A DNA stretch of 45,571 nt from an uncultured Bifidobacterium sp. (lineage in GTDB: Bacteria > Actinomycetota > Actinomycetes > Actinomycetales > Bifidobacteriaceae). Below, piece by piece: positions 31,160-45,571 of this stretch (within the stretch, counting starts at the first letter, position 1; each line of letters begins with the position of its first letter). A model generated the notes under the pieces. The model did no database searches and had not been told where the DNA came from. It saw only the letters and a program-made list of their open reading frames with translations. The position numbers and the translations under genes are program-made. The stretch is from NCBI RefSeq assembly GCF_945269915.1, contig NZ_CALYOY010000016.1:1-45571 (forward strand), in the 5' to 3' direction.

Positions 31160-31964
31160 CGATGCGGGAATCGCAGGTGAGGCGGAGTCCGGTGCCTCGA
31201 TAGAGGGGTCCGGCCGTCTGGATAAGGCCATTCAGGACCTGGGACTGGCGGATTCCCGCTCCCGGGCCCAGCGGCTGATCCTGGAGGGTTCGGTCCGTCT
31301 TTCCGGCGTGGTCTGTACGAAACCCTCGGCCAAGGTCAAAGCCGGTGACGTGGTTCAGGTCGACAAGGGTCCCGACTACGCTTCGCGCGGGGCCTACAAG
31401 CTGGCCGGTGCCTTCGGTGCCTTCGAGCCCATGGGGCTGCCCAGTCCGGAAGGCCGCCTCTGTCTGGATATCGGAGCGTCAACCGGCGGTTTCACCGACC
31501 TCCTCCTGCGCAAGGGGGCCAGCAGGGTCATCGCCCTCGATGTGGGCGAGGATCAGCTGCTCGACCGCATTGCCCAGGATCCCCGGGTCATAGGGATGAG
31601 CGGGGTCAACATCCGCGATGTGGTCCCTGAAGATCTGCCCTACCGGCCCGACTACGTGGTCTCAGACGTATCCTTCATCTCATTGACTTACGTAATCCCC
31701 GTCATTCCGGCTCTGGTGGCCCCTGGCACCCAGTGCATCCTCCTGATCAAACCCCAGTTCGAGGTCGGCAGGACCCTGCTGGGCCATCATGGTGTGGTCA
31801 CTGAGGAGGACCGCCGTGTCCAGGCCGTGGAACGGGTGACCAGATGCGCCCTGGAATCAGGTTTCGAAGTCAAGGGTCAGGTGCCATCACCCATAACCGG
31901 AGCCCATGGCAATGTCGAGTACCTGCTCTGGCTGTCGAAACGCAGGCAGGCCTCCGACGGATAG
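31146..31964 (+). CDS. tlyA: 16S/23S rRNA 2'-O-methyltransferase TlyA
   Basis: The 272-residue protein has an N-terminal S4 RNA-binding domain (RLDKAIQDLGLADSRSRAQR) and an FtsJ-like methyltransferase domain with LDIGASTGGFTDLLLRKGA as SAM motif I and DYVVSDVSFISL as the motif IV region. It ends with HGNVEYLLWLS. TlyA methylates riboses in 16S and 23S rRNA, and its presence makes ribosomes sensitive to capreomycin and viomycin in mycobacteria. The ATG at 31146 lies inside the end of the preceding gene. Its last ~130 bp are repeated, frameshifted, at 38210-38337. nadK and recN, the usual followers in many actinobacteria, are missing here. Confidence 0.94.
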   Translation: MARTDDAGIAGEAESGASIEGSGRLDKAIQDLGLADSRSRAQRLILEGSVRLSGVVCTKPSAKVKAGDVVQVDKGPDYASRGAYKLAGAFGAFEPMGLPSPEGRLCLDIGASTGGFTDLLLRKGASRVIALDVGEDQLLDRIAQDPRVIGMSGVNIRDVVPEDLPYRPDYVVSDVSFISLTYVIPVIPALVAPGTQCILLIKPQFEVGRTLLGHHGVVTEEDRRVQAVERVTRCALESGFEVKGQVPSPITGAHGNVEYLLWLSKRRQASDG

Positions 31965-31970
31965 TCCTAT

Positions 31971-31987
31971 ATCGAGACCGTCTCGAT
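31971..31987. promoter_or_regulatory. Perfect palindrome just after tlyA
   Basis: ATCGAGAC-C-GTCTCGAT is an 8+1+8 bp perfect palindrome starting 6 bp after the tlyA stop. It may fold into a weak terminator hairpin or serve as a protein-binding site. No T tract follows. The remaining leader up to 32205 holds the palindrome at 32100-32126 and nothing else I recognise. Confidence 0.4.
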
Positions 31988-32099
31988 TCTGGATAGTCAA
32001 TATCGGAAACGGCTGTCTTGACGGAGCTCTCCGACCGAGCCGGTCCCTTCAAGTCCATGCCCCTTGTGATGGAGACCCTATAGAGTAGGGATGGTATTC

Positions 32100-32126
32100 C
32101 TTGTTCACCTGGTTCAGGTGAACAAG
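32100..32126 (+). promoter_or_regulatory. 12-bp inverted repeat upstream of the module 1 regulator
   Basis: CTTGTTCACCTG and CAGGTGAACAAG form perfect 12-bp arms separated by GTT, ending 79 bp before the regulator start. A TATAGAGT motif lies just upstream at 32079-32086. The repeat could be an operator for autoregulation or an RNA hairpin in the leader. It differs from the palindromes before the binding-protein gene, so a different regulator or a structural role is possible. Confidence 0.45.
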
Positions 32127-32205
32127 GAGGACAGATGCCGACCGATGTCTGTCCTGGGTTTTCAAGCCCGACGGGGAGAGTCGATGGAGTGGTGAGGTAC
32201 GAATC

Positions 32206-33306
32206 ATGCGCAGGGCTACCGTGTACGATGTTGCCGAGCGGGCTGGTGTTTCCATTGCAACCGTCTCTTTCACTTACAGACAGCCGAATCGGGTGCGTGA
32301 ATCGACACGGCGTAAGGTTCTTGCCGCCGCTCGGGAACTGGACTATATACCCAGTGCCAATGCGCGTGGCCTGGCCAAGGGACGGACAGGTGTGCTGGGC
32401 TTGTACTCCTTTGATCTTCTTTTGGAACACCCCCTGGGTCAGGGGAATCCTGCCTCTGACGTTGGATTGAAATCGGACGTGGACTCTGACCTGGACGGAG
32501 CAGAGCCCAATATCCGCGCCTACCCTCTCTATGTGGACGAGGTCCAACGGGGGTTCGAGCTGGAATGCTGGCATCAGGGTCAGGCGGTCCTGCTGAGCAG
32601 CTCGGATGACGGGAAACGGGGGGAATCAATCACCGATCTGGCAGGACGAGTGGACGGGCTGGCGCTCTTCTCCTGGGGAGAGAGTCCTGAAGCATTGAAA
32701 CGGCTGGCCAAGACCATTCCGGTAGTCATGCTGAGCCAAAGCAAGGGCGACTTGCCCGTCATGTATCTTTCCTTTGATAATGAATCCGGAATGAATCGGA
32801 TCGTCGACCATCTGGTGGATGTGCATGGGGCCAGGCGGATTGTTTTCATCGGTACCCTGGATTTCCCTGAGGTGGGTGTGCGACTGGATATTGTGAAGCG
32901 ACGGGTGCACAAGCGGGGCCTTCCGGCGTGTCGACCAATCGACGCCGTTTTGGATCATCGGGTGCTTTACCAGGCCTTGGCCCATGTGGTTCGTGAGGAT
33001 AAACTCCCGGATGCCTTGGTCTGTGCCAATGATCAGATGGCACTGTCCGTCATGGATGTCCTCCTTGATTTAGGTATCCGTGTCCCAAGGGATGTCATTG
33101 TGACGGGCGTTGATGGCATCCTGGCCGGGAGATTCGCCACCCCAGCCCTGACCACCGTCCAACTTTATATGGAACGGTTGGGGAGGCTGGCGGCCGATAG
33201 CCTTGCCGAGAGGGATGGACAGCCTTGGAAAGAGCCTCGGAGCGCCATGGCGCCGGCAAGGCTGGTTGTCAGAGAGAGCTGTGGTTGCCATGGTCAGGCG
33301 GTCTGA
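32206..33306 (+). CDS. LacI-family regulator of sugar module 1
   Basis: The 366-residue repressor starts with the LacI helix-turn-helix and hinge (TVYDVAERAGVSIATVSFTY, then RKVLAAARELDYIPSANARGLA). A periplasmic-binding-protein-like ligand domain follows, with ALVCANDQMALSVMDVLLDLGIRVPRDV. It ends in ESCGC, often seen in this family. It contains an atypical insert of about 30 residues near 85-115 (NPASDVGLKSDVDSDLDG). It lies 156 bp before the binding-protein gene, whose promoter carries two palindromic sites, and probably releases them when a transported sugar binds. Base composition is visibly less GC-rich than in the upstream housekeeping genes. Confidence 0.93.
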   Translation: MRRATVYDVAERAGVSIATVSFTYRQPNRVRESTRRKVLAAARELDYIPSANARGLAKGRTGVLGLYSFDLLLEHPLGQGNPASDVGLKSDVDSDLDGAEPNIRAYPLYVDEVQRGFELECWHQGQAVLLSSSDDGKRGESITDLAGRVDGLALFSWGESPEALKRLAKTIPVVMLSQSKGDLPVMYLSFDNESGMNRIVDHLVDVHGARRIVFIGTLDFPEVGVRLDIVKRRVHKRGLPACRPIDAVLDHRVLYQALAHVVREDKLPDALVCANDQMALSVMDVLLDLGIRVPRDVIVTGVDGILAGRFATPALTTVQLYMERLGRLAADSLAERDGQPWKEPRSAMAPARLVVRESCGCHGQAV

Positions 33307-33371
33307 CGTGCGTGTCGTCCGCCCGTAGTCATCCAAATCAGTATATTGGCGTTGGTGCCTTGTCCGACCGT

Positions 33372-33427
33372 TTGACCTTTAGAATCTAAGCGCATAGACT
33401 ATAAACTGCAATCTAAGCACTTAGATT
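33372..33427 (+). promoter_or_regulatory. Promoter with two LacI-type operators for module 1
   Basis: A -35 box TTGACC (33372-33377) and -10 box TAGACT (33395-33400) are 17 bp apart. Operator O2, AATCTAAGCACTTAGATT (33410-33427), is a perfect 18-bp palindrome. O1, AATCTAAGCGCATAGACT (33383-33400), shares its left half and overlaps the -10. The two are 27 bp apart. Repressor binding would block polymerase. The neighbouring LacI protein is the likely ligand (inference). Confidence 0.75.
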
Positions 33428-33461
33428 TGTATTATTTCGTATTTATTCGAGGAGGAATGTA

Positions 33462-34760
33462 ATGCAGAGAATAATGAAAGGGGCCCGTGTGACGGCTGCC
33501 GTGGTCTGCAGCCTGGCTGCAATGGCCGGAATGTCAGCCTGCGGGCGTACCGAAGGTGGAGACGCCAAGGGCAATGGTTCCGCTGTTGCCAGCATCGACA
33601 GCAAGCCGGCAAAAGGAGATCTGACGCTCTGGGCCATGGGTGCCGAGGGGGAGAAGCTCCCCGAGCTGGTCAAGGACTTTGAAAAGGAGAACCCTGACGT
33701 TCATGTCAAGGTGACCTCCATACCTTGGGCTTCCGCCCACGACAAGTTCCAAACGGCCATTGCAGCTGGCAATGGCCCGGATCTGGCCCAGATGGCCAAC
33801 ACCTGGATGGCCGATTTCGGCAATGCCTTCTCGACCGTACCGGGCAACCTCTCCATGGATGATATGGCCTCCGGTCCCGTTCAGGGCGGCAAGGTCGGCG
33901 GTAAGCAGCTGGGTGTGCCGTGGTATATCGACACCCGCGTCCTCTATTACCGCACTGATCTGGCCCGGCAGGCCGGTTGGGACCATGCTCCCAGGACCTG
34001 GGATGAGCTCAGCGCAATGGGCGAGGACATGAAGAGGCTGGACGGCACGGACTTCGGTCTCTACCTGAACCCGGCGGGCACGGACAACTTCATCGCCGAT
34101 CTTCCGTTCGCTTTCTCGGCTGGTGCCTCGTTGACGGACAAGTCGGGTAGGAAGTGGACCTTGAACACCCCGGAGATGCGCAAGGCCATCACCTATACCA
34201 GCAATCTCTTCAAGGACGGCATAGCCGATGTGAATGCCGATACGAGCGCCGGTGCCAACATGGCCGCCTTCGCCTCAGGAAAGACCCCCATGATGTTGGA
34301 AGGCCCCACTGCCATCGGTCAGGTGGAGCAGGTAGGTGGTCCCGGTATGAAGAACAAGTTCACCACTGCTCCTCTGCCCAAGGGTGACAAGGGGTCGGTC
34401 TCCTATTCGGGAGGCAGCGACATGGTCGTGTTCAAGGACTCCAAGAGCCAGGATGCCGCCTGGAAGATGGTCAAGTGGATGAGCAGGCCTGAGACCCAGG
34501 CCAAGTGGTACAAGCTTTCCACCGATCTTCCGGCCTCGTCCAAGGCCTGGGAGGATCCTGAGCTGAAGGAAGACGACAAGCTGACCGCTTTTGCCACCCA
34601 GATGAAAAGCATGAAGACCACCCCGTCCGTCACCACCTGGGCACAGGTCAATGCTTCGGGCGATAAGATCATGGAGCAGATCAACAAGGGCGCCATCAGT
34701 GTTGACAAGGGCCTGGAGCAACTCCAGTCCGAGGCAGAGTCAGCCGGGATGGGCAACTGA
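33462..34760 (+). CDS. Sugar-binding lipoprotein of ABC transporter, module 1
   Basis: The 432-residue solute-binding protein has a lipoprotein signal peptide: basic start, a hydrophobic core (TAAVVCSLAAMAGMSA) and a lipobox GMSAC with Cys27 as the lipidated residue. The mature part is a family 1 extracellular solute-binding protein (LTLWAMGAEGEKLPELVKDFEKENPDV; GVPWYIDTRVLYYRTDLA). It captures an oligosaccharide outside the cell and passes it to the two permeases that follow. A strong GGAGGA ribosome-binding site precedes the ATG. The sugar cannot be read directly; the GH1 enzyme in the operon suggests a beta-linked glycoside. Confidence 0.94.
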   Translation: MQRIMKGARVTAAVVCSLAAMAGMSACGRTEGGDAKGNGSAVASIDSKPAKGDLTLWAMGAEGEKLPELVKDFEKENPDVHVKVTSIPWASAHDKFQTAIAAGNGPDLAQMANTWMADFGNAFSTVPGNLSMDDMASGPVQGGKVGGKQLGVPWYIDTRVLYYRTDLARQAGWDHAPRTWDELSAMGEDMKRLDGTDFGLYLNPAGTDNFIADLPFAFSAGASLTDKSGRKWTLNTPEMRKAITYTSNLFKDGIADVNADTSAGANMAAFASGKTPMMLEGPTAIGQVEQVGGPGMKNKFTTAPLPKGDKGSVSYSGGSDMVVFKDSKSQDAAWKMVKWMSRPETQAKWYKLSTDLPASSKAWEDPELKEDDKLTAFATQMKSMKTTPSVTTWAQVNASGDKIMEQINKGAISVDKGLEQLQSEAESAGMGN

Positions 34761-34762
34761 CC

Positions 34763-35683
34763 ATGAGTCGTAAGCAGCCGTCGAAGGATACGGGGCGTTC
34801 GTCCTCGGTCCTACGTCGTAGGCGGACCCTCATCGCATGGGGGTTCGCCTTGCCCTTCACCCTTGTCTTCGTGGTTTTCATGCTCCTGCCCCTCCTGTCG
34901 TCACTGATGATGTCGTTTACCGATATCACCGCCAGGGACCTCAGGACCCCTTTCGATGTCAACTTCGTCGGGCTCCAGCAGTATGCGACCCTTTTCAAGG
35001 ATCCTCAGTTCTTGCGATCCCTCGGTATCACCGGTATTTTCGTGGTGGTCGGTCTACCCATAACCATGGCCCTGGCGCTTTGCTTTGCCGTGGCCCTCAA
35101 CAAGGGCGCCAAGCACTTGAACGGTTTCTTCCGGGCTCTGTATTATGCCCCGGTCGTGGCCAGCGTGGTGGCTGTTTCAGTGGTCTGGCGATATATCCTC
35201 CAGCGCAATGGACTGCTCAACGATGCCCTGGCCCTAGTCGGGATTCAGGGCCCGGACTGGTTGCATGATACCCGTTTCGCTCTGCCGGCTCTGATTGTCA
35301 TGACCACATGGCGCAACATGGGTACCCTGATGATCATCTTCCTGGCCGGACTCCAGGCAGTCCCTGAGGACGTCAAGGAGGCGGCTGCCATAGATGGCGC
35401 ATCCAGGACGAGGACTTTCTGGAGCATCACCATGCCCCTTCTGAGGCCGACCCTGCTCCTGGGGGCCGTGCTCCTGTCCGTGACCTACCTGCAGTTCTTC
35501 GAAGAATCTTTCGTCATGACCCAGGGAGGGCCCCTGAACTCGACGCTGTCTGCTTCCTACTATGTCTACCAGAAGTTCAGCTTCGGGCAGTACGGCTTGT
35601 CATCAGCGGCCAGCTACATCCTCTTCATCATCATCGCCTTGGTCAGCGCCCTGCAGTTCCGGGTGCTCCGCACGCAGGAATGA
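34763..35683 (+). CDS. Sugar ABC transporter permease (MalF type), module 1
   Basis: The 306-residue inner-membrane subunit has six predicted helices, starting with LIAWGFALPFTLVFVVFMLLPLL. The cytoplasmic EAA loop EAAAIDGASRTRTFWSITMP contacts the ATPase. It belongs to the CUT1 (oligosaccharide) class. It starts 2 bp after the binding-protein gene and pairs with the next permease. No ATPase gene is in the operon, so a shared MsiK-like ATPase encoded elsewhere is inferred. Confidence 0.94.
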   Translation: MSRKQPSKDTGRSSSVLRRRRTLIAWGFALPFTLVFVVFMLLPLLSSLMMSFTDITARDLRTPFDVNFVGLQQYATLFKDPQFLRSLGITGIFVVVGLPITMALALCFAVALNKGAKHLNGFFRALYYAPVVASVVAVSVVWRYILQRNGLLNDALALVGIQGPDWLHDTRFALPALIVMTTWRNMGTLMIIFLAGLQAVPEDVKEAAAIDGASRTRTFWSITMPLLRPTLLLGAVLLSVTYLQFFEESFVMTQGGPLNSTLSASYYVYQKFSFGQYGLSSAASYILFIIIALVSALQFRVLRTQE

Positions 35684-35690
35684 GGCAATC

Positions 35691-36569
35691 ATGACTTCTG
35701 TATATTCCGGTTCTGTCCAGGCAGACCGGACCAAGCCCTCTTTGTGGAAGCGGTTTACAAGGGGACGCGGTCTTACCTATACGGTTCTGGCCGTGGTCGG
35801 TTTGGTCTGGATATTCCCCTTCATCTGGATGGCCCTGGGCTCGATCAAGAGCCAGGGGGAGATTCTCGCCACCCCGCCCACCTTCTGGCCGAAGAACCCG
35901 ACGCTGGAGAACTATGCCAAGTGGTTCGGAGAGCTGAACTTTGGGACCTACTTCGTCAACAGCATGATTGTTGCGGTGATTACGGTCCTGGGGAACGTGG
36001 TCTTCTGCTCCATGGTCGGATATGCGCTGGCCAAGATGGATTTCGCTGGCAAGCGCATTCTCTTCGGAGCCGTCATGATCACCCTTATGGTGCCCAGTGT
36101 CTCGACCTTTGTGCCGCTCTTTGTCATTGTTTCCAACCTGGGGTTGTCCAATACCTATTGGGCCCTGATCCTGCCTTTCCTCACTCAGCCCATTGGTGTA
36201 TTCCTGATGAGGCAGTTCATGATGGGGATTCCGGATGCCCTCCTGGAGGCGGCCCGGGTGGATGGTGCAGGTGAGCTGAGGATCTTCTGGTCCATAGTCC
36301 TTCCCCAGTGCGGGCCGCCTCTAGCGACCCTGAGCATACTGACCTTCCTGGCCTCCTGGAACAACTTCCTGTGGCCATTGGTCGCTATGCAGACCAACGA
36401 TCGTTATACCCTGCCGGTGGCGCTTTCCCTGTACTCGACAGGGCAGAACGCCACGAATTATGGAGTCCTGCTGGCAGGTGCGGTCTTGGTCATTACGCCG
36501 ATACTCCTGCTTTTCGTGGCCCTGCAGCGTTACTTCATCCAGGGTGTAGCAATGACCGGCATCAAGTAA
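35691..36569 (+). CDS. Sugar ABC transporter permease (MalG type), module 1
   Basis: The 292-residue partner permease has six predicted helices and the EAA loop EAARVDGAGELRIFWSIVLP. ASWNNFLWPLVAMQTNDRYTLP near the C-terminus is typical of MalG-type CUT1 subunits. The ATG at 35691 is 7 bp after the previous stop; a longer upstream reading overlaps the first permease and does not look like a membrane protein. It forms a heterodimeric channel with the MalF-type subunit. Confidence 0.94.
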   Translation: MTSVYSGSVQADRTKPSLWKRFTRGRGLTYTVLAVVGLVWIFPFIWMALGSIKSQGEILATPPTFWPKNPTLENYAKWFGELNFGTYFVNSMIVAVITVLGNVVFCSMVGYALAKMDFAGKRILFGAVMITLMVPSVSTFVPLFVIVSNLGLSNTYWALILPFLTQPIGVFLMRQFMMGIPDALLEAARVDGAGELRIFWSIVLPQCGPPLATLSILTFLASWNNFLWPLVAMQTNDRYTLPVALSLYSTGQNATNYGVLLAGAVLVITPILLLFVALQRYFIQGVAMTGIK

Positions 36570-36583
36570 TCCCAGCTTTTGTA

Positions 36584-36608
36584 CCCCGGACTCTATTTGG
36601 GGCCGGGG
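36584..36608 (+). repeat. Inverted repeat after the module 1 permeases
   Basis: CCCCGG (36584-36589) and CCGGGG (36603-36608) flank 13 bases, 14 bp after the permease stop. It may be a weak terminator or an mRNA-protecting hairpin that lowers read-through into the GH1 gene. No T tract follows directly. Confidence 0.4.
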
Positions 36609-36714
36609 CATGGAAGCGACCGCCATCATCGGGCCTTCCCCGTCGATGGCGTGATTTTTGTCTTTATTGAACCAGCAGCATCAAGTTCCGTCACAGAAAG
36701 GTCCACCATTGCCA

Positions 36715-37896
36715 ATGCAACGGTCAACTTACTCATTCCCGCAGGATTTTCTCTGGGGTGCAGCAACCGCTGCCCACCAGGTGGAGGGCAACAACGTTAG
36801 CTCGGACTGGTGGGAACGGGAGCATCGGGATGATACCGACCTGGCCGAACCTTCAGGGGATGCCCTGGACAGTTACAACCGATACGAGGATGATATTGAC
36901 CTGATTGTCAAAGGTGGTCTGGGTGCCTATCGATTCTCTCTGGAGTGGGCCAGGATTGAGCCCGAGGAGGGGTTCTTCTCCAAGGCTCAGCTCTTGCACT
37001 ACCGGCGGATGATTGAGGTCTGCCTTGAACGGGATGTTGTTCCTGTAGTGACTCTGAACCACATGACCTTGCCGCGTTGGTTCGCCCATCGCGGAGGATG
37101 GAGGTCCGAGGATTCAGCCGATCTGTTTGGTCGCTATGTGGCCAGGGTTCTCCCTATTCTGGACGGTGTGACCTGGGTCTGCACCATTAATGAGCCCAAT
37201 ATGGTCGCCTTGACACGGGGAGGTTCGCAGGGATCCAACATGGCCGCCTCCCAATTGCCTTCTCCGGATCCTGTGATCTCCGAATCGCTGATCCGGGCGC
37301 ATGACCGAGCTCGGGAGATTCTTGCCGAGGTGGACGCCATCCGTTCCGGCTGGACCATTGCCTGCCAGGATTTCCAGGCCGCTCCGGGATGCACCCGCCA
37401 GATGGAGGAGTACCGATATCCTCGTGAGGACATATTCACGGAGGCAGCCAAGGGAGATGATTTCGTCGGTGTCCAGGCTTATCTGCGGACCATCATCGGA
37501 CCAGAAGGGCCCCTGCCCGTCGTCGACGGTGCGGAGCGTACTCTGACCGGCTGGGAGTACTACCCCCAATCCTTGGAACACGCAGTCCGCCATACTTGGG
37601 AGGTGACTGGCCACGTTCCGATAGTGGTTACCGAAAACGGCATTGCCACAGGTGACGATTCTCGGCGCATCGACTATACCTATGATGCCTTGGCTGGGCT
37701 CCATACGGCCATGGACGATGGAATAGACGTGCAGGGCTATCTGCATTGGTCCTTGCTTGACAATTACGAATGGGGTTCGTTTAGACCCACCTTTGGTTTG
37801 GCTTCATGTGATCCCGACACCTTCAAGAGGGTTCCCAAACCCTCAATGAAGTGGTTGGGCAGAGTTGCGCAAACCGGTGTGCTGAGCCATCCCTGA
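36715..37896 (+). CDS. GH1 family beta-glycosidase
   Basis: The 393-residue cytoplasmic glycosidase has the family 1 N-terminal signature FPQDFLWGAATAAHQVEG. The acid/base Glu160 is in TINEPN and the nucleophile Glu307 in VTENG. The C-terminal part has HWSLLDNYEWGSFRPTFGL. This intact catalytic set makes beta-glucosidase, 6-phospho-beta-glucosidase or beta-galactosidase activity likely. The ABC context, without a PTS, favours non-phosphorylated sugars. It is shorter than the usual 440-480 residues. The start may be the ATG at 36715 or a TTG at 36709, which is better spaced from AAAGG. It is the last gene of module 1. Confidence 0.92.
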   Translation: MQRSTYSFPQDFLWGAATAAHQVEGNNVSSDWWEREHRDDTDLAEPSGDALDSYNRYEDDIDLIVKGGLGAYRFSLEWARIEPEEGFFSKAQLLHYRRMIEVCLERDVVPVVTLNHMTLPRWFAHRGGWRSEDSADLFGRYVARVLPILDGVTWVCTINEPNMVALTRGGSQGSNMAASQLPSPDPVISESLIRAHDRAREILAEVDAIRSGWTIACQDFQAAPGCTRQMEEYRYPREDIFTEAAKGDDFVGVQAYLRTIIGPEGPLPVVDGAERTLTGWEYYPQSLEHAVRHTWEVTGHVPIVVTENGIATGDDSRRIDYTYDALAGLHTAMDDGIDVQGYLHWSLLDNYEWGSFRPTFGLASCDPDTFKRVPKPSMKWLGRVAQTGVLSHP

Positions 37897-38065
37897 GTCG
37901 TCCACCATCCGGGAAGCAGGTTGTATGTGGATTGTCTGTTTGCCGATGGGTTGGTTGCTTTTGGATTGTCGATATCCCCAAGCCTTGGTTCCCGCCGGGA
38001 AGTGCATCGGGTCTGACCTGTCAGGACCATTGTTCCGGTCCGGATCTTCTGCAGAGGCATGAATC

Positions 38066-38096
38066 CGAATTGATCGCTTATGCTGTCATCAATTCG
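38066..38096. repeat. 9-bp inverted repeat in the module 1/2 junction
   Basis: CGAATTGAT (38066-38074) and ATCAATTCG (38088-38096) are perfect arms 13 bases apart, 170 bp after the GH1 stop. A terminator without a T tract, or a regulator site, are both possible. The 579-bp gap 37897-38475 also holds the repeated element and tlyA fragment described next. No intact gene lies in it. Confidence 0.4.
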
Positions 38097-38150
38097 TGTT
38101 CTGCATTTGAACTGTGGTCTGGTTCGACTAATTGAGACGTTTTCCCCCCG

Positions 38151-38200
38151 TACTACAGCGACACACGAAGCTGGACGCCAGCCGCAAACGGTGCGGCTAA
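38151..38200 (+). repeat. Junction element, copy 1
   Basis: By eye, 29 of the first 38 bases match the element at 45412-45449, with the shared cores CAGCGACACAC and CTGGACGCC, followed in both by TGCGG and TAA. Here the right part also forms a hairpin, AGCCGCA/TGCGGCT (38180-38186 and 38192-38198). It directly precedes the tlyA fragment. Copy 2 follows module 2, so the element marks the right side of both modules. Confidence 0.65.
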
Positions 38201-38202
38201 CG

Positions 38203-38355
38203 AGGAGAGGACCGCCTTGTCCAGGCCGTGGAACGGTTGACCAGGCGTGTCCTGGAATCAGGTTTCGGGGTCAGGGGCGGGTGTCATCGCCCATAACCGG
38301 AGTCCATGGCAATGTTGAATACCTGCTCCGGTTATCGGATACGGCTGAAATCTGA
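38203..38355 (+). pseudogene. tlyA: Truncated, frameshifted copy of the tlyA 3' end
   Basis: Bases 38210-38337 align to 31809-31937 at the end of the intact tlyA gene, with 109 of 129 positions identical by eye. One base is deleted near 38272, which shifts the frame between RRVLESGFGVRG and SPITGVHGNVEYLLRLS. The native-like stop at 38353-38355 is kept after a different tail (DTAEI). No upstream part of tlyA is present, so it cannot make a functional enzyme. About 16% divergence means it is not a recent exact duplication; it may be the 3' end of another tlyA allele displaced by insertion of module 1. Confidence 0.88.
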
Positions 38356-38475
38356 CCCTCGGCCATTCGTATTGACGGGATGGCCTGTTTCACCGTCTCG
38401 GAGCGGCTTTCCTGGGCCGCGGATAAGCAATGCTATATTTGGTCATGCCTACTTCCCCTTTTTCCAGGAGGTCTC

Positions 38476-39504
38476 GTGGCTGGGATCAAGGATGTCGCCG
38501 CCGAAGCCGGAGTTTCCATCAGCACCGTTTCATATGTCCTCTCGGGAAAACGACGAGTCAGCGATGAGACCAAGTTGAAGGTTCTTGAGGCTGTTCGTCT
38601 CCTGGATTACCGTCCCAAGCGGGGAGCCGCCATGCTGCGCCAGGGGGCCCGGACCAGGTTGATGGCGCTGAGTTCCCCCATGCACAGCTACACCGACTAC
38701 AGCAACTATGCCGCGTTCTTCTTCGCGGTTGTGGCCAGGGCGCGTCGCTACCACTACAACGTCGTGCTGCTTACGGACGAAAACGAGGAGGATGAACTGC
38801 TGCGCATGTCATACAGCGGCATGGTCGACGGGGTACTGCTGCTGGACGTCAATACCGACGATGAGCGAGTGGCTCATGCGCGAACATCCATGGTGCCCTA
38901 TGTCTCTATCGGTTGCGCGAAGGACCATGCGGACCTTGTTTCCGTGGATACCGATTTCGAAGCCATGGGCAGGATGGCCATTGATGAGTTCTACCGGTTG
39001 GGGCATCGGAATGTGCTCATGATCGGAGCCAGTGAGGAAAGCTACCGCCAAGGATCGAACTTCCTGGTCCGGACCAGGGAATCCGTTGAAACGCGAGCAA
39101 AGGTGCTGGGAATGCACCTGGACTTCCGATACTCCACCGGTGATGACGCAGTGCACGTGGAGGAGGTCATCGCCTCAGCCTACATGCAGACCCCGGGCAT
39201 AACGGCGATTATGGCCCAAACCAACATCAGCCACATGAATAACGTCATCGGTTCCTTGTTCAGACGAGGCAAGTCCATTCCCGGCGATGTATCGCTCCTG
39301 GCCTTGAGCACCTTCGGCAACGCTTCGGTCATGGAACAGCCCATAGATGAGATTCCCATGCAGCCCAACAAGACATGCTCCCGCGGAGTGGACATGCTCA
39401 TGGACCGTCTTGAAGGGCGTGAATCCAATCTCGGGGCGGTTGAGCTGATTCCTTCGAGTTACCTTCGCCGAGGATCGGTCGGTCCGGTTTCCGGCAGAGG
39501 CTGA
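38476..39504 (+). CDS. LacI-family regulator of sugar module 2
   Basis: The 342-residue repressor begins with the LacI DNA-binding domain IKDVAAEAGVSISTVSYVLS, and the hinge helix follows RLLDYRPKRGA. The ligand domain is of LacI type, with GHRNVLMIGASEESYRQGSN and IPGDVSLLALSTFGNASV. The GTG at 38476 is chosen for AGGAGG 4 bp upstream. The earlier in-frame ATG at 38380 has no such site and would precede the helix-turn-helix with unrelated residues. It is likely to control the binding-protein operon that starts 140 bp downstream. It is not closely similar to the module 1 regulator. Confidence 0.93.
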   Translation: MAGIKDVAAEAGVSISTVSYVLSGKRRVSDETKLKVLEAVRLLDYRPKRGAAMLRQGARTRLMALSSPMHSYTDYSNYAAFFFAVVARARRYHYNVVLLTDENEEDELLRMSYSGMVDGVLLLDVNTDDERVAHARTSMVPYVSIGCAKDHADLVSVDTDFEAMGRMAIDEFYRLGHRNVLMIGASEESYRQGSNFLVRTRESVETRAKVLGMHLDFRYSTGDDAVHVEEVIASAYMQTPGITAIMAQTNISHMNNVIGSLFRRGKSIPGDVSLLALSTFGNASVMEQPIDEIPMQPNKTCSRGVDMLMDRLEGRESNLGAVELIPSSYLRRGSVGPVSGRG

Positions 39505-39531
39505 ACGGTCCGTATCTTCCACTGCAACGAC

Positions 39532-39599
39532 TTGTCGAAAATTGTCGAAATAGTCGGCCGATGATAGTGCAATGAATAAATTAAGTACTGGTTATTCAT
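39532..39599 (+). promoter_or_regulatory. Probable promoter/operator region of module 2
   Basis: TTGTCGAAAA (39532-39541) and TTGTCGAAAT (39542-39551) are exact-phase direct repeats one helical turn apart. ATGAATAA (39572-39579) and TTATTCAT (39592-39599) form an 8-bp inverted repeat with a 12-base spacer. Both lie between the regulator gene and the binding-protein start at 39644. Either could be the LacI operator. No clear -35/-10 pair could be fixed. Confidence 0.5.
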
Positions 39600-39643
39600 C
39601 GCGGATGACCCTTGAGCAATGAGGCCGAAAGGAGAGGACTCCT

Positions 39644-40960
39644 ATGAAGGTGTCTAAGACAATCATGGCGGCGCTGACAGCCGTGGCGAGTCTCGTGGGA
39701 CTTGCATCCCTGTCCGGTTGTGGCGGCAGTGACAGCGCCCAGGAGGAGCACCCTGATTCCATCAAGATCTGGTACTACGAGGAGGATAACGGCGCACAGG
39801 GCAAGGCCTGGAAGCAGGCCATCGCCGATTACCAGAAGAAGACCGGCGTCAAGGTCAACTTCGAGAAGAAGACCTTCGAGCAGATCAGGCAGAACGCCAG
39901 CCAGATCCTGAATTCCGACGATGCCCCCGATGTCATGGAGTATAACAAGGGCAACGCCACGGCCGGCCTGCTCTCGAGCCAGGGACTGCTGTCCAGCCTG
40001 AACGATTACGTCAAGAAGTACAACTGGGATAAGAAGATCACCGGCTCACTCGCCGCCCCCGGTAAGTATGACGAAAAGGGCGTCATGGGATCCGGTGATT
40101 GGTATGGCATCACCACCTACGGCGAGGAGGTGATGATGTACTACAACACGGAGATGTTCGAGAAGTACGGCATCGCCATTCCCAAGACCATGCCCGAGCT
40201 GGAAGCAGCCATGCAGAAGTTCAAGGACAACGGTGTGACACCGCTGTCCGAGGGTGTGGCCGAGTATCCTCTGCAGCACCTCTGGTGGCAGCTGGTCCTG
40301 CAGAAGGCGGATACCAAGCTGATCAACGCCTACCAGCGCTATGACGGCAAGGTTGACTGGGAGGGTCCCGCCATGACCTACGCCACCGACACCATCAAGG
40401 ACTGGGTCGACAAGGGATACATCAGCAAGGATTCAACCGGTCTCAAGGCCGAGGATGCCGGGCAGAACTTCATGAAGGGCACCTACCCCATGTTCTTCTC
40501 CGGATCATGGTGGTTCGGACGCTTCCAGAGTGATGTTCCCAACCTCAAGTGGCAGGTCGGTCTCTTCCCCGAGTCCAAGAAGATCCCTGGCGGATCAGGC
40601 AACATCTGGGTCATTCCCGAGCGCTCCAAGAAGAAGGATGCCGCTGCCGAGTTCATCAACATGACCCTGACCAAGGACAACCAGAACCTGATGGGCAACT
40701 CCGGTGGCCTGCCCATCGCCGCGGATGCCGATAAGATAACCGACCCCAAGAGCAAGGAACTGATATCGGGGTTCAACGAGGTCATCAAGGATGACCGTCT
40801 GGGGTACTATCCCGATTGGCCCACCTCCACACTCTATGACGAGCTCAATGCCGGCCTGCAGGAGCTGGTCAACGGCACCAAGGCCCCCAAGGACGTACTC
40901 AAGGAACTCCAAGGCAAGTACGACAAGGGTGTTGAGACGTCAGGCGTGAAGCAGAAGTAA
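39644..40960 (+). CDS. Sugar-binding lipoprotein of ABC transporter, module 2
   Basis: The 438-residue family 1 solute-binding protein has a signal peptide (MKVSKTIMAALTAVASLVGL) and lipobox LSGC. The mature protein has IKIWYYEEDNGAQGKAWKQAI, DDAPDVMEYNKGNAT and the aromatic-rich FFSGSWWFGRF, usual in oligosaccharide binders. The start follows GGAGAGGA. The operon continues with two permeases and an alpha-xylosidase, so a xylose-containing oligosaccharide such as a xyloglucan fragment or isoprimeverose is the best guess at the ligand. It shows little similarity to the module 1 binding protein. Confidence 0.94.
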   Translation: MKVSKTIMAALTAVASLVGLASLSGCGGSDSAQEEHPDSIKIWYYEEDNGAQGKAWKQAIADYQKKTGVKVNFEKKTFEQIRQNASQILNSDDAPDVMEYNKGNATAGLLSSQGLLSSLNDYVKKYNWDKKITGSLAAPGKYDEKGVMGSGDWYGITTYGEEVMMYYNTEMFEKYGIAIPKTMPELEAAMQKFKDNGVTPLSEGVAEYPLQHLWWQLVLQKADTKLINAYQRYDGKVDWEGPAMTYATDTIKDWVDKGYISKDSTGLKAEDAGQNFMKGTYPMFFSGSWWFGRFQSDVPNLKWQVGLFPESKKIPGGSGNIWVIPERSKKKDAAAEFINMTLTKDNQNLMGNSGGLPIAADADKITDPKSKELISGFNEVIKDDRLGYYPDWPTSTLYDELNAGLQELVNGTKAPKDVLKELQGKYDKGVETSGVKQK

Positions 40961-40970
40961 TCACAAGAAC

Positions 40971-41000
40971 GCTCGGATTGCCCGATCAGTCAATCCGAGC
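40971..41000 (+). repeat. Stem-loop between binding-protein and permease genes, module 2
   Basis: GCTCGGATTG and CAATCCGAGC are perfect 10-bp arms around a 10-base loop, 10 bp after the binding-protein stop, followed by CTGGCTTTATT. Such hairpins commonly protect the upstream mRNA or partly terminate, giving more binding protein than permease. The rest of the 160-bp gap shows no gene. Confidence 0.7.
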
Positions 41001-41120
41001 CTGGCTTTATTCACCGGATGGTCCCGCAGCACCGGTCAACGGACCTGCTTTCTTGAGGAAGTGGATTCCCGGTCCTGCGGGACACCGCCCGGACATCATT
41101 TGTGTATGAGGAAGTGAGAC

Positions 41121-42092
41121 ATGGGATCTCGAAGAAAGAAAGGCGCCGAATCGGTCTCCGCCAGAACCGACGAAGAGCGTGGGATGTCCCGGATACCGGG
41201 TAATCCGTCTAACCGTTTCTGGTGGTATCTGATACCAGGCCTGGTGGTCCTGCTCTGGATCATCATCGTGCCGGCTATCTGGAACATCTATCTGAGCTTC
41301 ACCAACTACCGGGGCATACGTCCGCCGAAGTGGATCGGGTTGGATAACTGGTCCAGACTCATGAGGGATGCCACCTTCTGGGCTTCCTTCCGCAACTCCA
41401 TCTGGATGATCGTGGCCATGGTGGTCATTCCCATCCTGATCGGTCTGATTCTGGCCTCTCTGGTGTTCGACGTGGTGCAGAAACGCTTCGGTGCCAAGAC
41501 CGCTTCGACCATGAGAGCCATCTACTACTTCCCCCAGCTCCTGCCCATCTCCGTGGCCGCCCTGGTCATGGGCTGGATTTTCCGGCCAGAGAACGGTGCC
41601 CTCAATGCCATTCTGAAAGGAATGGGCCTGGGGCGCTTCCAGCACAACTGGCTGGGATCGCCTGATACGGCTTTGATATTCCTGATGATCATCATGATCT
41701 GGATTCAGCTGGGGTATCCGCTGGTCATCTTCATGTCAGGGCTGCAGAGGGTCGATCCGGAACTGTACGAAGCGGCCAGCCTGGATGGGGCCAACTGGTG
41801 GCAGCGGTTCAGGGTCATCACCCTGCCGGCCATCAAGCCCGAGATCTTCGTGGTTGCCCTGACCTGCACCATCGCCGCCCTGAAGGTCTTCGCTCCCGTA
41901 TACATGCTGACCAAGGGCGGCCCTGGCGACAGCACCATCGTGCCCTCCTATTACTCCTATACCCAGTTCTTCCAGTCCCAGCAGGTCGGGTACGGAGCGG
42001 CCATAGCAACGGCCCTGACGGTGGTCATCATCGTCATATCGATTGTCTTCACCAACCTTCAGCAGCGGGTTGAGAAAGAGGATGAGGAGTAA
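41121..42092 (+). CDS. Sugar ABC transporter permease (MalF type), module 2
   Basis: The 323-residue membrane subunit has a charged N-terminal arm of about 30 residues and then six predicted helices (WWYLIPGLVVLLWIIIVPAI first). The EAA loop is YEAASLDGANWWQRFRVITL, and KVFAPVYMLTKGGPGDST near the C-terminus is typical of MalF-type CUT1 subunits. GAGGAAG precedes the ATG. It pairs with the next gene 3 bp downstream. As in module 1, no ATPase gene accompanies it. Confidence 0.94.
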   Translation: MGSRRKKGAESVSARTDEERGMSRIPGNPSNRFWWYLIPGLVVLLWIIIVPAIWNIYLSFTNYRGIRPPKWIGLDNWSRLMRDATFWASFRNSIWMIVAMVVIPILIGLILASLVFDVVQKRFGAKTASTMRAIYYFPQLLPISVAALVMGWIFRPENGALNAILKGMGLGRFQHNWLGSPDTALIFLMIIMIWIQLGYPLVIFMSGLQRVDPELYEAASLDGANWWQRFRVITLPAIKPEIFVVALTCTIAALKVFAPVYMLTKGGPGDSTIVPSYYSYTQFFQSQQVGYGAAIATALTVVIIVISIVFTNLQQRVEKEDEE

Positions 42093-42095
42093 GAC

Positions 42096-42953
42096 ATGAG
42101 TGCACATACCACGCTTCCCAAGGCAAGGAAGAACCGGACGGTGGGAGACTGGGCCATTCTGGTCCTGCTGATCATCGGCGGGCTGATCATGCTCTTCCCC
42201 TTCTTCATCCTTCTCCTCAACGCCTTCAAGACCGCGGCCGATTACAACGCATCAGGCCCGCTCTCATGGCCCAGCGAGTTCAGTCTGGCCGGTCTGGAGA
42301 AGTTCTGGACCAGGGTCAGGTTCCCCCAGAAGGTCTGGAACAGCATCTGGATCAGCGGACTGGTGTCGGTTCTGGCGGTAGGCCTCTCCGTGCTGAATTC
42401 ATTCGCGCTCGGCATCGGCAGGGTCAGGGGGCGGCGCTGGATCGTCCTCCTGATCATGCTGGCCAACATGATGCCCCAGGAGGCCCTGCTCTACCCGCTC
42501 TACATCATGTTCAAGAGCATGGGGCTGTACAACTCCCAGTGGGCCATAGTGATCATATTCACCGTCATACAGAGCGCCTTCGGCACCTACCTGCTCTCCT
42601 CGGTCTACGGCACCTTCCCCAAGGCCATCCTGGAGGCAGCCACCATCGACGGTGCCAGCAGGTGGAGGGTGCTCAAGGACATCGTCTTCCCCATATCCAC
42701 GCCCACGCTGAGCGTCATGCTGGTCTTCTTCTTCATCTGGACCTGGAACGAGTACATGATTCCCATGGCCTTCCTGATCGACAACGCCAAGCAGACCGTC
42801 CCGATCGCCATCGCCTCCCTGACCGGGGACAGGCTCATGGATGTGACCACCACGGCGGCGGCCTCACTGATCAGCATCGTGCCCACGCTGATCTTCTACC
42901 TCATCTTCCAGCGCACCCTCTCCAGGGGCATCACGACAGGAGCAGTGAAATAA
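42096..42953 (+). CDS. Sugar ABC transporter permease (MalG type), module 2
   Basis: The 285-residue permease has six predicted helices (WAILVLLIIGGLIMLFPFFI first) and the EAA loop EAATIDGASRWRVLKDIVFP. TWNEYMIPMAFLIDNAKQTVP near the C-terminus is typical of MalG-type subunits. It lies 3 bp after the first permease, and its stop codon directly abuts the start of the GH31 gene, so the three are translated together. Confidence 0.94.
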   Translation: MSAHTTLPKARKNRTVGDWAILVLLIIGGLIMLFPFFILLLNAFKTAADYNASGPLSWPSEFSLAGLEKFWTRVRFPQKVWNSIWISGLVSVLAVGLSVLNSFALGIGRVRGRRWIVLLIMLANMMPQEALLYPLYIMFKSMGLYNSQWAIVIIFTVIQSAFGTYLLSSVYGTFPKAILEAATIDGASRWRVLKDIVFPISTPTLSVMLVFFFIWTWNEYMIPMAFLIDNAKQTVPIAIASLTGDRLMDVTTTAAASLISIVPTLIFYLIFQRTLSRGITTGAVK

Positions 42954-45374
42954 ATGAAATTCACCAATGGATACTGGCTGGCTCGACCCGGGGTCGAGGC
43001 GCTGTATGCCCGTTCGCCCTATGAACTATCGGTTGGCGATGATGGCAGGAGCATAGATGTGTTGGCCACCACGCAGGTGATTCATGACAGGGCGGATACA
43101 CTCAATCTTCCGATCTTCCGCATCCATGCCTCATCGCCGGCCGAGGGCATTATCCGTGTCCGGGCATCGCATTGGAAGGGCAGCAGGGTCTGCCCCGGGT
43201 TCCCGGTCAATGAGCAGGATTCGGACGGTGGGACTGTAAGCGCCGGAGCCCAGGGCCCCGGCGATGGTGAGGTCGGCGAGGAGGGTGCCACCGTCCGCCT
43301 GGACAGCGGTGATCTGAGCCTGACCGTGACCAAGGGCAGCACTTTCGATATGACCTTCAGGTGCGCTGACAGGGAACTGACCCATGCCCGGGGCAAGTCC
43401 CTGGCCAGGTTCCTTCTTGAACCCGACGCAGCGGTGTCGACCCAGCCGGTCGGGGAGTTCGGTGTTTCCCCCACGGCCAATGCCTATGACGAGTCGCCGG
43501 TCTTCACCTCCATCCAGCTCGGCCTGGGTGTGGGGGAGCGGGTCTACGGCTTCGGCGAACGGTTCGGCCCCTACCTGAAGAACGGCCAGTCCGTCGACAT
43601 CTGGAACGAGGACGGCGGCACCGCCAGCGAACAGGGCTATAAGGACATCCCCTTCTACATGACCAGTAACGGATATGGTGTCCTGGTCAATAACAGAGGG
43701 CATGTATCCTTCGAGGTGGCCACCGAGAACACCGAGACCGTCCAGTTCAGCGTGCCGGGCGAGACCATCGACTTCTATCTGATCGCAGGGCCTGATCCCA
43801 AGCGGATTCTGGAGAGGTACACCGCCCTGGTCGGCAGGGCCGCCGAGGTTCCTGCCTGGTCATACGGTCTGTGGCTGACCACATCCTTCACCACCAAGTA
43901 CGATGAGCGGACGGTCACCTCCATGATTGACGGCATGGCCGAGAGGGACATACCGCTCAGCGTCTTCCACTACGACTGCTACTGGATGCGCGAGTTCCAC
44001 TGGACCGACTTCCAGTGGGACAAGCGGTTCTTCCCCGATATCGAGGGAACCCTGAGTCGTCTCCACCAGGACAGGGGCCTGCACGTCTGCGCCTGGATCA
44101 ACCCCTACATCGGTCAGGAAAGCGCACTCTTCGATGAAGGTGCCGCCAAAGGCTACCTGGTGCGCAAACCCAACGGTGACATCTGGCAGACCGACCTCTG
44201 GCAGGCCGGCATGGGCCTGGTGGACTTCACCAATCCCGAGGCCCGCGACTGGTACAAGGAGAAGATAAAGACCCTCCTGAACCAGGGGGTCGATGCCATC
44301 AAGACCGATTTCGGTGAGCGCATCCCCTCGGATGTGGTCTGGTTCGATGGGTCTGATCCCGCCACCATGCACAACTGGTACACCCAGCTGTACAACCAGG
44401 CGGTTTTCGAGGCCATCGAGGAGGCCCGTGGCAAGGGACGGGCCTGCCTGTACGCCAGGTCGGCGACCGTCGGTGGGCAGCAGCAGCCGGTGCACTGGGG
44501 CGGGGACTGTGAGTCCACCTTCAACGGCATGGCCCAGACCCTCCGGGCCGGTCTCTCCCTGGCCAGCTCCGGTTTCGGCTTCTGGAGCCACGATATCGGC
44601 GGTTTCGAGGGCGCCCATCCCGATCCAGCGGTCTACAAGCGTTGGATCGCCTTCGGTCTGCTCTCCTCCCACTCCCGTCTGCACGGCTCCACCGTCTATC
44701 GGGTGCCCTGGCTCTTCGACCAGGAGGATGAGCGCCGGGGTGTGGTCAATCCTCCCGACCAGACCGCCGTCAGTGTGCTGCGTGAGTTCACCAAGCTGAA
44801 GATATCGCTCATGCCTTACCTCTACCAGGTGGGACTCGGGGCACATGAGGATGGTCTGCCGGTCATGCGGTCCATGTTCATGGAGTTCCCCGAGGATCGT
44901 ACCGCCCTTGACTGCGACCGACAGTATATGCTGGGTCCCTCCCTGCTGGTGGCCCCGGTCTTCTCCTACTCCGGAGACGTGGACTACTACCTGCCCAAGG
45001 GCGTGTGGACCAACTGGTTCACCGGCAGGCAGGAGGACTGCCGCCAGGCCGGTCGCTGGATCAGCGAGCGGTATGGTTTCGATACCGTGCCGCTCTGGGT
45101 TCGAGACGGAACCGTCCTGGTAACCCGGGAGGGTCAGGCCAGCACCGAATACGCCTATGGAACCGATGCCACGGTTTCCGTTTTCATGGCCCAGGACGGC
45201 AAGGCCCAGGCCCGCGTCCGGGACGAGGCAGGCGACGATGTCGTCTTCTCCGCCGAGCGCAATGGGAATCAGGTGACCATCGCCTCCTCCGACGGCCGTG
45301 ACTTCACCGGCTGCCTGGGCAGGGACGAGGGTGTGCGTTCGCAGAATGGGCGTGTGGTTCTGACCGTCGCATAG
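42954..45374 (+). CDS. yicI: GH31 alpha-xylosidase, YicI type
   Basis: The 806-residue cytoplasmic glycosidase removes alpha-1,6-linked xylose, as from isoprimeverose and xyloglucan oligosaccharides. The GH31 N-terminal beta-sandwich (YGFGERFGPYLKNGQSVDIW) is followed by the catalytic barrel. The nucleophile Asp452 lies in KTDFGERIP and the acid/base Asp518 in HWGGDC; FGFWSHDIGGFE and SSHSRLHGS are also YicI-like. KTDFGERIP, rather than the WxDMNE of alpha-glucosidases, supports xylosidase over maltase. An inserted Gly/Glu-rich loop occurs near residues 88-120. The ATG directly follows the permease stop. Substrate is predicted, not proven. Confidence 0.92.
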   Translation: MKFTNGYWLARPGVEALYARSPYELSVGDDGRSIDVLATTQVIHDRADTLNLPIFRIHASSPAEGIIRVRASHWKGSRVCPGFPVNEQDSDGGTVSAGAQGPGDGEVGEEGATVRLDSGDLSLTVTKGSTFDMTFRCADRELTHARGKSLARFLLEPDAAVSTQPVGEFGVSPTANAYDESPVFTSIQLGLGVGERVYGFGERFGPYLKNGQSVDIWNEDGGTASEQGYKDIPFYMTSNGYGVLVNNRGHVSFEVATENTETVQFSVPGETIDFYLIAGPDPKRILERYTALVGRAAEVPAWSYGLWLTTSFTTKYDERTVTSMIDGMAERDIPLSVFHYDCYWMREFHWTDFQWDKRFFPDIEGTLSRLHQDRGLHVCAWINPYIGQESALFDEGAAKGYLVRKPNGDIWQTDLWQAGMGLVDFTNPEARDWYKEKIKTLLNQGVDAIKTDFGERIPSDVVWFDGSDPATMHNWYTQLYNQAVFEAIEEARGKGRACLYARSATVGGQQQPVHWGGDCESTFNGMAQTLRAGLSLASSGFGFWSHDIGGFEGAHPDPAVYKRWIAFGLLSSHSRLHGSTVYRVPWLFDQEDERRGVVNPPDQTAVSVLREFTKLKISLMPYLYQVGLGAHEDGLPVMRSMFMEFPEDRTALDCDRQYMLGPSLLVAPVFSYSGDVDYYLPKGVWTNWFTGRQEDCRQAGRWISERYGFDTVPLWVRDGTVLVTREGQASTEYAYGTDATVSVFMAQDGKAQARVRDEAGDDVVFSAERNGNQVTIASSDGRDFTGCLGRDEGVRSQNGRVVLTVA

Positions 45375-45387
45375 GCAAGCGTCCGTC

Positions 45388-45424
45388 TGTCGCTGCAGTC
45401 CATGTACATCGGACTGCAGCGACA
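45388..45424 (+). terminator. Hairpin closing module 2
   Basis: TGTCGCTGCAGTCC (45388-45401) and GGACTGCAGCGACA (45411-45424) are perfect 14-bp arms around a 9-base loop, 13 bp after the GH31 stop. The stem is very stable, but no T tract follows. The right arm overlaps the element also found at 38151. Confidence 0.7.
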
Positions 45425-45459
45425 CACCAGACTGGACGCCCACGTCAAATGCGGTAATA
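45412..45459 (+). repeat. Junction element, copy 2
   Basis: This copy shares CAGCGACACAC and CTGGACGCC with 38151-38188 (29 of 38 bases by eye). It begins within the right arm of the module 2 hairpin and ends 41 bp before the tRNA gene. TTGTCGAAAA, also present twice before the module 2 binding-protein gene, follows at 45467-45476. Confidence 0.65.
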
Positions 45460-45500
45460 TATATGAGTTGTCGAAAACAAGAGATTGTTGACGATGACAT

Positions 45501-45571
45501 GCGCCAGTAGCCCAATGGATTAGAGCAGCTGACTACGGATCAGCAGGTTGCAGGTTCGAATCCTGTCTGGC
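45501..45571 (+). tRNA. tRNA-Arg (ACG), 3' end cut by the window edge
   Basis: The acceptor 5' strand GCGCCAG (45501-45507) would pair with CTGGC at the window end plus the missing GC. A D arm follows. The anticodon stem GCTGA/TCAGC holds the loop CTACGGA, with anticodon ACG at 45535-45537, decoding CGU and related Arg codons after A34 deamination. The T arm GCAGG-TTCGAAT-CCTGT is intact. Only the last few bases lie outside. tRNA genes are frequent island borders. Confidence 0.93.

Follow-up and report, generated by a model that had tools for sequence, protein, structure and literature searches.

How did a complete sugar-use cassette come to stand between the gene tlyA and a second, broken copy of that gene's 3' end? 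The question is raised by contig C16 of an uncultured Bifidobacterium sp. (1.97-Mb genome, 71 contigs), which we analysed over its whole length of 45,571 bases and call the window. Here the intact tlyA is followed by module 1 (M1, GH1 type), the tlyA remnant, module 2 (M2, alpha-xylosidase type) and a tRNA-Arg(ACG) gene (Table 1). We refer to the interval between tlyA and tRNA-Arg(ACG) as the slot, to the upstream region of the tRNA-Arg gene as P, and to a decayed copy of P as P'. From a comparison with 26 other genomes of the genus Bifidobacterium (labelled G001 etc.) we consider it probable that two versions of one slot, one with M1 and one with M2, were joined head to tail beside tlyA by unequal illegitimate joining.

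A first-pass annotation, made from the letters of the window alone, had reported that the tlyA 3' end recurs downstream in the same orientation, and about 131 bp of it indeed do so at 38207-38337. The direct repeats 31806-31937 and 38207-38337 agree at 87% over 71 nt and at 85% over 65 nt, with a one-base offset. In a blastn search of the window against itself, with the low-complexity filter on, the tlyA tail was the only repeat listed at E<=1e-6 (E 7e-33), and we therefore do not regard it as a chance match. The earlier identity of 109 of 129 positions, counted by eye, came to 114 of 134 aligned positions on measurement. The frameshifting deletion (measured as one base) and the retained stop (38353-38355) were found as the annotation had described, and a 2-base insertion at the joint also breaks the frame. 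Within its own genome tlyA matches only the intact gene and two pieces of the remnant. If a change is placed on the remnant wherever the intact end agrees with the relatives G014 and G015, 11 of the 21 differences between intact end and remnant arose on the remnant (6, 4 and 1 at codon positions 1, 2 and 3) and 6 on the intact end (0, 2 and 4), the other 4 being unassigned. The remnant pattern reads as decay, and that of the intact end fits a constrained gene.

G014 and G015, the nearest relatives among the 26 genomes (tlyA 82% identical), reveal what the site looks like without M1. Both have a single tlyA end, followed directly by M2 and then by tRNA-Arg(ACG), and window positions 38207-45571 align to them without interruption at 86%, the alignment beginning within tlyA precisely where the remnant does. 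M1 is absent from both, their best GH1 match being partial at 40% and their best match to the M1 sugar-binding protein (SBP) reaching 25-27%. Because tlyA of G014 and G015 runs straight into the same downstream DNA without M1, the remnant is the old tlyA end on the old DNA, and M1 together with the other tlyA end is the addition. The earlier proposal of an insertion beside tlyA that left the old end behind is thereby supported, and the check suggested with it, on relatives that lack M1, returned a single tlyA end in both nearest genomes. At four-fold sites, M2 of the window diverges from that of G014 by ~0.359 (five genes, 1037 sites; range 0.24-0.52), and the 17 upstream genes together with tlyA diverge by ~0.382 (3835 sites; range 0.30-0.51; Mann-Whitney p 0.23); rows g1, g2 and g6286, in the wrong frame, were excluded from this count. 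The M2 divergence fits vertical descent at the locus since the split from G014 and G015, equal divergence being no proof of it.

The right border of the addition lies in P', directly before the remnant, which repeats the tRNA-Arg upstream region at the far end of M2 (repeat D3, 38149-38188 versus 45410-45449, 78%). P' aligns with the P of the window and with that of G014 at a score of 24 each, reached by 0 of 1000 shuffles in either case, and with the spacers of three asteroides-type genomes at 12.5 to 16.5 (0, 1 and 5 of 1000 shuffles); asteroides-type is our label only, for genomes with tRNA-Arg directly after tlyA. By these scores P' is of the window's own clade type. The distance between tlyA and tRNA-Arg was taken for all 26 genomes. 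In 13 of them tRNA-Arg follows ~105 bp after tlyA, with the same kind of upstream sequence between (four of these spacers were aligned); among the other 13, five have ~1 kb between tlyA and tRNA-Arg, two have M2 there, and six are without tRNA-Arg in the fetched stretch. P-type sequence is probably the tRNA promoter: asteroides-type genomes carry, by eye, TGGACA, 17 nt and TAATAT before tRNA-Arg, and a simple promoter scan of the window called no promoter in the P region.

At the joint itself, P' stops at TGAG and tlyA continues from its own TGAG. G001 reads CTAATGAG followed by GAGGACC, its intact upstream region reads CATATGAG followed by TTGTC, and the intact tlyA of the window reads CACTGAG followed by GAGGACC. 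The microhomology between P and tlyA is the four letters TGAG only, and G001 has it clean. The tlyA tail and P are each present in two copies, which follow one another in unchanged order and orientation and meet at a new joint between P' and the tail. Because P' ends at TGAG and tlyA goes on from TGAG, we read the scar as the head-to-tail joint of two slots; M1 would have brought the right border of a tlyA...tRNA-Arg slot along. A fusion of P' to tlyA at TGAG is not what plain homologous recombination produces, and this border was missed in the first-pass annotation, which had homologous recombination as one of its two routes. The related statement that exactly the module lies between the two tlyA ends is correct for the LacI, SBP, permease and GH1 genes but not for 38146-38205, which is the tRNA-Arg upstream copy.

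One of the 26 other genomes, G001, carries the same scar almost complete (query 7-233 of 233), although this genome is distant from that of the window (tlyA 62% identical). The G001 stack lies at 518.8-530.1 kb, ~276 kb from that genome's own tlyA at 805.8 kb, and runs from just before the SBP gene of M1 (without LacI) through the same spacer, P', the tlyA tail and M2 to tRNA-Arg. Its M1 is decayed, with four stops in the SBP gene and a deletion that removes about the first two thirds of GH1. Its M2 is 92-95% identical to that of the window in coding DNA and differs by ~0.17 at four-fold sites (1072 sites), half of the distance to G014. Over 127 positions, the tlyA tail of the stack has 109 in common with the remnant of the window but only 66 with the own tlyA of G001, which indicates that the tail was imported. 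The two remnants group together with support of 98/93 in one tree and 93/89 in a tree with 13 asteroides-type outgroup genomes, and they have in common the joint and five changes away from the state shared by the intact end, G014 and G015. Given this grouping and these shared changes, the likely order of events is joining, some decay, and then transfer or split. The stack seems to have moved as one unit, scar included.

Did the intact tlyA end come from a foreign species, as the first-pass annotation had supposed? The intact end agrees with G014 at 109 of 135 positions and the remnant at 103 of 134, in both cases less well than the two agree with each other (114 of 134). Sites polarised with the 13 asteroides-type genomes unite the intact end and the remnant four times, and neither of them with G014/G015 even once; in the tail tree with this outgroup, intact end and remnants fall together with support 77/38. 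The four-fold divergence of tlyA from G014 (0.43) lies inside the range of the 17 upstream genes, and divergence from G014/G015 shows no step along tlyA or the upstream genes, as would be expected for a close partner, whose contribution would then be invisible. A foreign origin thus left no sign in identity, codon-position polarity, trees, approximately unbiased (AU) tests or the four-fold profile, and we rejected this candidate, although the short tail tree rejects neither alternative grouping (AU p 0.338 each). The tail and divergence data do not call for a foreign donor and do not support one, a moderately distant one still being compatible with them. A tlyA scan of named genomes returned mostly distant relatives, including two named Bifidobacterium species and no close ones, and its result was not used.

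We propose that slot content differs by lineage and that the clade ancestor carried M2, as G014 and G015 do. In the window lineage, a second slot version, tlyA-M1-P'-(tRNA-Arg), would have been put head to tail before the M2 version through an illegitimate joint that linked the end of P' with the 3' part of tlyA by way of the TGAG common to both. Of the M1 version the side next to tlyA, and of the M2 version the side away from tlyA, would have been retained. The product would be, from left to right, intact tlyA, M1, the cut-off P', the orphan tlyA tail, M2, P and tRNA-Arg. By now ending on the M1-linked copy, tlyA would have remained intact in this arrangement; the orphan tail and P' decayed. 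The partner would have belonged to the same or a closely related lineage, not to a foreign species, and the stack with its scar would later have reached the G001 lineage, where M1 is now broken. The joining could happen in one step, if incoming DNA of a close relative was homologous on one side and met TGAG on the other, as in homology-facilitated illegitimate recombination (HFIR), or by tandem duplication between sister chromosomes, with the first cassette replaced afterwards; between one-step joining and duplication plus swap the data do not choose. The M1-only slot version, the single step and the closeness of the partner are what we infer, whereas the data show the anatomy of the locus, the site without M1, what P' is, an M2 divergence like that of core genes, the decay of the tail and the scar in common with G001.

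Several observations weigh against this history. The tail offers little data (131 bp), and AU tests of the groupings among intact end, remnants and G014/G015 reject none of the alternatives (p 0.338 each); splitting the two remnants is likewise not rejected at 0.05 (p 0.064 and 0.071). P' is no nearer to the window's own P than to that of G014, and a four-letter match at a joint is weak evidence alone. To the right of the intact tlyA, no homology to G014/G015 emerges in 31938-32060 (scores reached by 594, 265 and 317 of 1000 shuffles), which leaves the left border of M1 undefined, and of the bases that follow the repeat in the remnant the first 48 do not align significantly (162 of 1000 shuffles), the next 75 doing so (0 of 1000). 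Moreover, M1 alone in a tlyA-tRNA-Arg slot was found in no genome of the set, and the M1 relatives in G022, G017, G013 and G008 stand at other loci without the scar. A longer homology with G014/G015 to the right of the intact tlyA, seen by eye, was discarded when it failed the shuffle test (594 and 265 of 1000).

The rival explanations overlap our proposal in part, those of a tandem duplication and of an ancestral stack accepting the same joint, and the probabilities that we attach to them do not sum to one. A tandem duplication may have come first, doubling a unit of tlyA tail, M2 and P by a TGAG/TGAG joint on sister chromosomes, with the first M2 later replaced by M1. We find this doubtful: P' belongs to the M2-linked type, the two tlyA ends either resemble sisters from a single lineage or are left undecided by the AU test, and the joint has the form generally known from short-homology tandem duplication, yet no trace of M2 remains between tlyA and M1, where spacer 31940-32205 has no match at E<=1 among the loci compared, or between M1 and P', where 37894-38205 has a full-length match only in G001. 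The duplication also requires a second, unmarked event, and its units are not alike throughout, M1 and M2 being different cassettes. It is improbable that the stack is ancestral to the clade and that recombination between the two tlyA ends deleted M1 in G014 and G015. A deletion of this kind poses no mechanical difficulty, and the tail tree allows an old split by the same AU value; however, it should have left G014 and G015 with a far tlyA end like the remnant, whereas they share the letter of the intact end at 11 differing positions and that of the remnant at 6. M1 would therefore need to have been lost before the decay, or by a crossover close to the very end, and the four polarised sites join intact end and remnant, with none for other groupings.

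Insertion of other-species DNA, with a foreign tlyA 3' end and M1, by homologous recombination in tlyA would explain an addition that left the old end in place, and the G+C content of M1 (57.7, against 64.6 upstream) points the same way, M2 being low too (59.4). The AU test would also permit the remnant to group with G014/G015. This reading is nevertheless decidedly improbable in view of identities and polarised sites that show no foreign end, the lack of a divergence jump in tlyA, a right joint that is not homologous, and P', which shows that the partner had this clade's slot border. Very unlikely, finally, is the site-specific integration of an element whose own tlyA 3' end restored the gene and whose integrase has since been lost. 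It would give the same topology, with the gene end restored and the displaced end on the far side, and needs no integrase today; profile and domain matches among the five M1 genes bear out the earlier remark that no integrase is visible. Such an element would not be expected to carry P', a chromosomal slot border, the other M1 loci examined, in four genomes, all lack the scar, and exact attachment repeats at both ends are lacking, the repeat being a 131-bp decayed gene end, 85% identical, and the right border P'.

M1 has the gene set and order of a LacI-SBP-permease-permease-GH sugar cassette, and its SBP-permease-permease-GH1 order is the same in G022, G017, G013 and G008. It differs from M2: the M1 permeases are 26-29% identical to those of M2 in G014, the LacI proteins match at 45% over 66 aa only, and M1 SBP and GH1 have no match in G014 M2. 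In a family-wide search, relatives of the M1 SBP at E<=1e-100 occur in 23 of 189 genomes, the window genome counted. By the coordinates of SBP, GH1 and tlyA matches, M1 stands at tlyA in 0 of the 26 other genus genomes, for 16 of which the genes downstream of tlyA were mapped, and the scar was absent from all nine further loci, in seven genomes, that bear M1 or M2. Relatives of M2 (GH31 59-85% identical) lie elsewhere in G018, G011, G004, G013 and G017 (L246, L247, L248, L249 and L250), with no scar beside them; the matches in G004 were limited to LacI, permease B and GH31, that of LacI extending into permease B. More tentatively, the tlyA...tRNA-Arg interval of bee-associated bifidobacteria could possibly be a cassette-exchange slot (M1-type, M2-type or empty). 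Recombination in the conserved flanks would swap its versions, and sometimes the right border of one slot would be joined to the tlyA of the next, each such stacking leaving a tlyA tail as one-way tracer. If this were true, the tlyA tail would trace the G001 block to the tlyA locus of the window's clade.

Table 1. Features of the window around tlyA, the two modules and tRNA-Arg(ACG).
Feature	Coordinates	Strand	Basis or remark
tlyA, intact, 272 aa	31146..31964	+	start read as ATG 31146; TIGR00478 190 bits vs cut-off 185.8
tlyA 3' end, functional repeat copy	31806..31937	+	self-repeat search, alignment, blastn
M1 LacI-type regulator	32206..33306	+	profile/domain matches
M1 sugar-binding protein (SBP_bac_1)	33462..34760	+	profile/domain matches
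M1 ABC (ATP-binding cassette) permease A	34763..35683	+	profile/domain matches
M1 ABC permease B	35688..36569	+	profile/domain matches
M1 GH1 glycosidase (beta-glucosidase-like)	36709..37896	+	profile/domain matches
DNA between GH1 and P'	37897..38145	+	common to G001; query 37894-38205, 82% over all 312 bases
P', decayed copy of tRNA-Arg(ACG) upstream region, of this clade's type	38146..38205	+	repeat D3, shuffle-tested alignment
Joint of the P' end with tlyA at codon ~220; both parents have TGAG	38197..38212	+	clean in G001: CTAATGAGGAGGACC; window copy with 2-base insertion
Remnant: decayed tlyA 3' end, runs on into native downstream DNA	38207..38355	+	repeat search, alignments to G014/G015
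M2: LacI, SBP, two permeases, GH31 alpha-xylosidase (NF007940, 1042 bits); resident cassette	38476..45374	+	start GTG 38476 by eye
Hairpin (by eye) and P, intact counterpart of P'	45387..45500	+	alignment to P' and to relatives
tRNA-Arg(ACG), 3 nt lost at contig end	45501..45571	+	

Further observations concern the surroundings of the tRNA-Arg gene. At the native tlyA loci of G011 and G001 (L115 and L124) its 3' end is repeated ~5 kb downstream (33 and 31 nt), and it is followed by phage capsid and HNH genes in G011 and by a weakly transposase-like gene in G001; mobile elements seem to use the tRNA-Arg behind tlyA as an insertion site. Downstream of tRNA-Arg in G014 (L112:3696-7144), a HamA gene (PF08878, E 6e-59) precedes a DEAD-box helicase gene, which we take to be a Hachiman-like defence pair. 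The imported tRNA-Arg of G001 (L232:3974-4049) has, by eye, an additional base ahead of its anticodon arm that the tRNA-Arg of the window lacks, and may be a non-functional copy. Beside it, the search for an integrase gave only a sub-threshold Pfam match, Phage_int_SAM_3 (E 0.0097, 16.6 bits vs 22.6), and no PHROG match, and we do not rely on it. A second tRNA-Arg copy that could account for the contig end was not found in the window's own genome (best other match 77% over 57 nt), nor was a continuation contig when that genome was searched with G001 downstream DNA (a single 430-base, 73% match elsewhere). Upstream, at 27555-29714, the window holds a 719-aa reading frame whose first half is, by eye, extended low-complexity sequence with many G, R, D, H and Y residues.

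Among literature titles and abstract starts we found no description of the slot or the scar; most subscription papers lie outside this coverage, and absence from print is not claimed. The element e14 integrates into the 3' end of icd, where the gene end is restored by the incoming DNA and the old end is displaced. The window resembles this in having the intact end on the incoming side and a displaced old end, and differs from it in that no integrase is present and the border is the tRNA-Arg upstream region. With short-homology tandem duplication by unequal sister exchange it shares the head-to-tail repeat of one locus and the TGAG joint; here, however, the units carry different cassettes, and only the flanks (tlyA tail and P) are repeated. 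HFIR, as PMC6382021 describes it for natural transformation, adds foreign DNA with 3- to 10-bp segments at the joint. The likeness is that one side could be anchored by homology, in tlyA, and the other joined at a few matching letters (PMC6382021), and the difference is that the partner here looks like the same locus. In the bee Bifidobacterium group, where B. indicum, B. coryneforme and B. actinocoloniiforme form one clade with B. asteroides, the accessory genes include carbohydrate ABC transporters and degradation enzymes (PMC4449606); the main text of that article has 0 mentions of tlyA, and its account of these genes describes no such slot or scar. The process at our locus is of a known kind, an ordinary genome rearrangement without new machinery. 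What it provides is a readable case of two sugar-use cassettes coming to stand in tandem in a relative of bee gut symbionts, with a joint from which one can still read which borders met. Since a distant species has the same scar, the joining can be placed before the transfer and the transfer given a direction, something that is seldom possible from gene trees alone.

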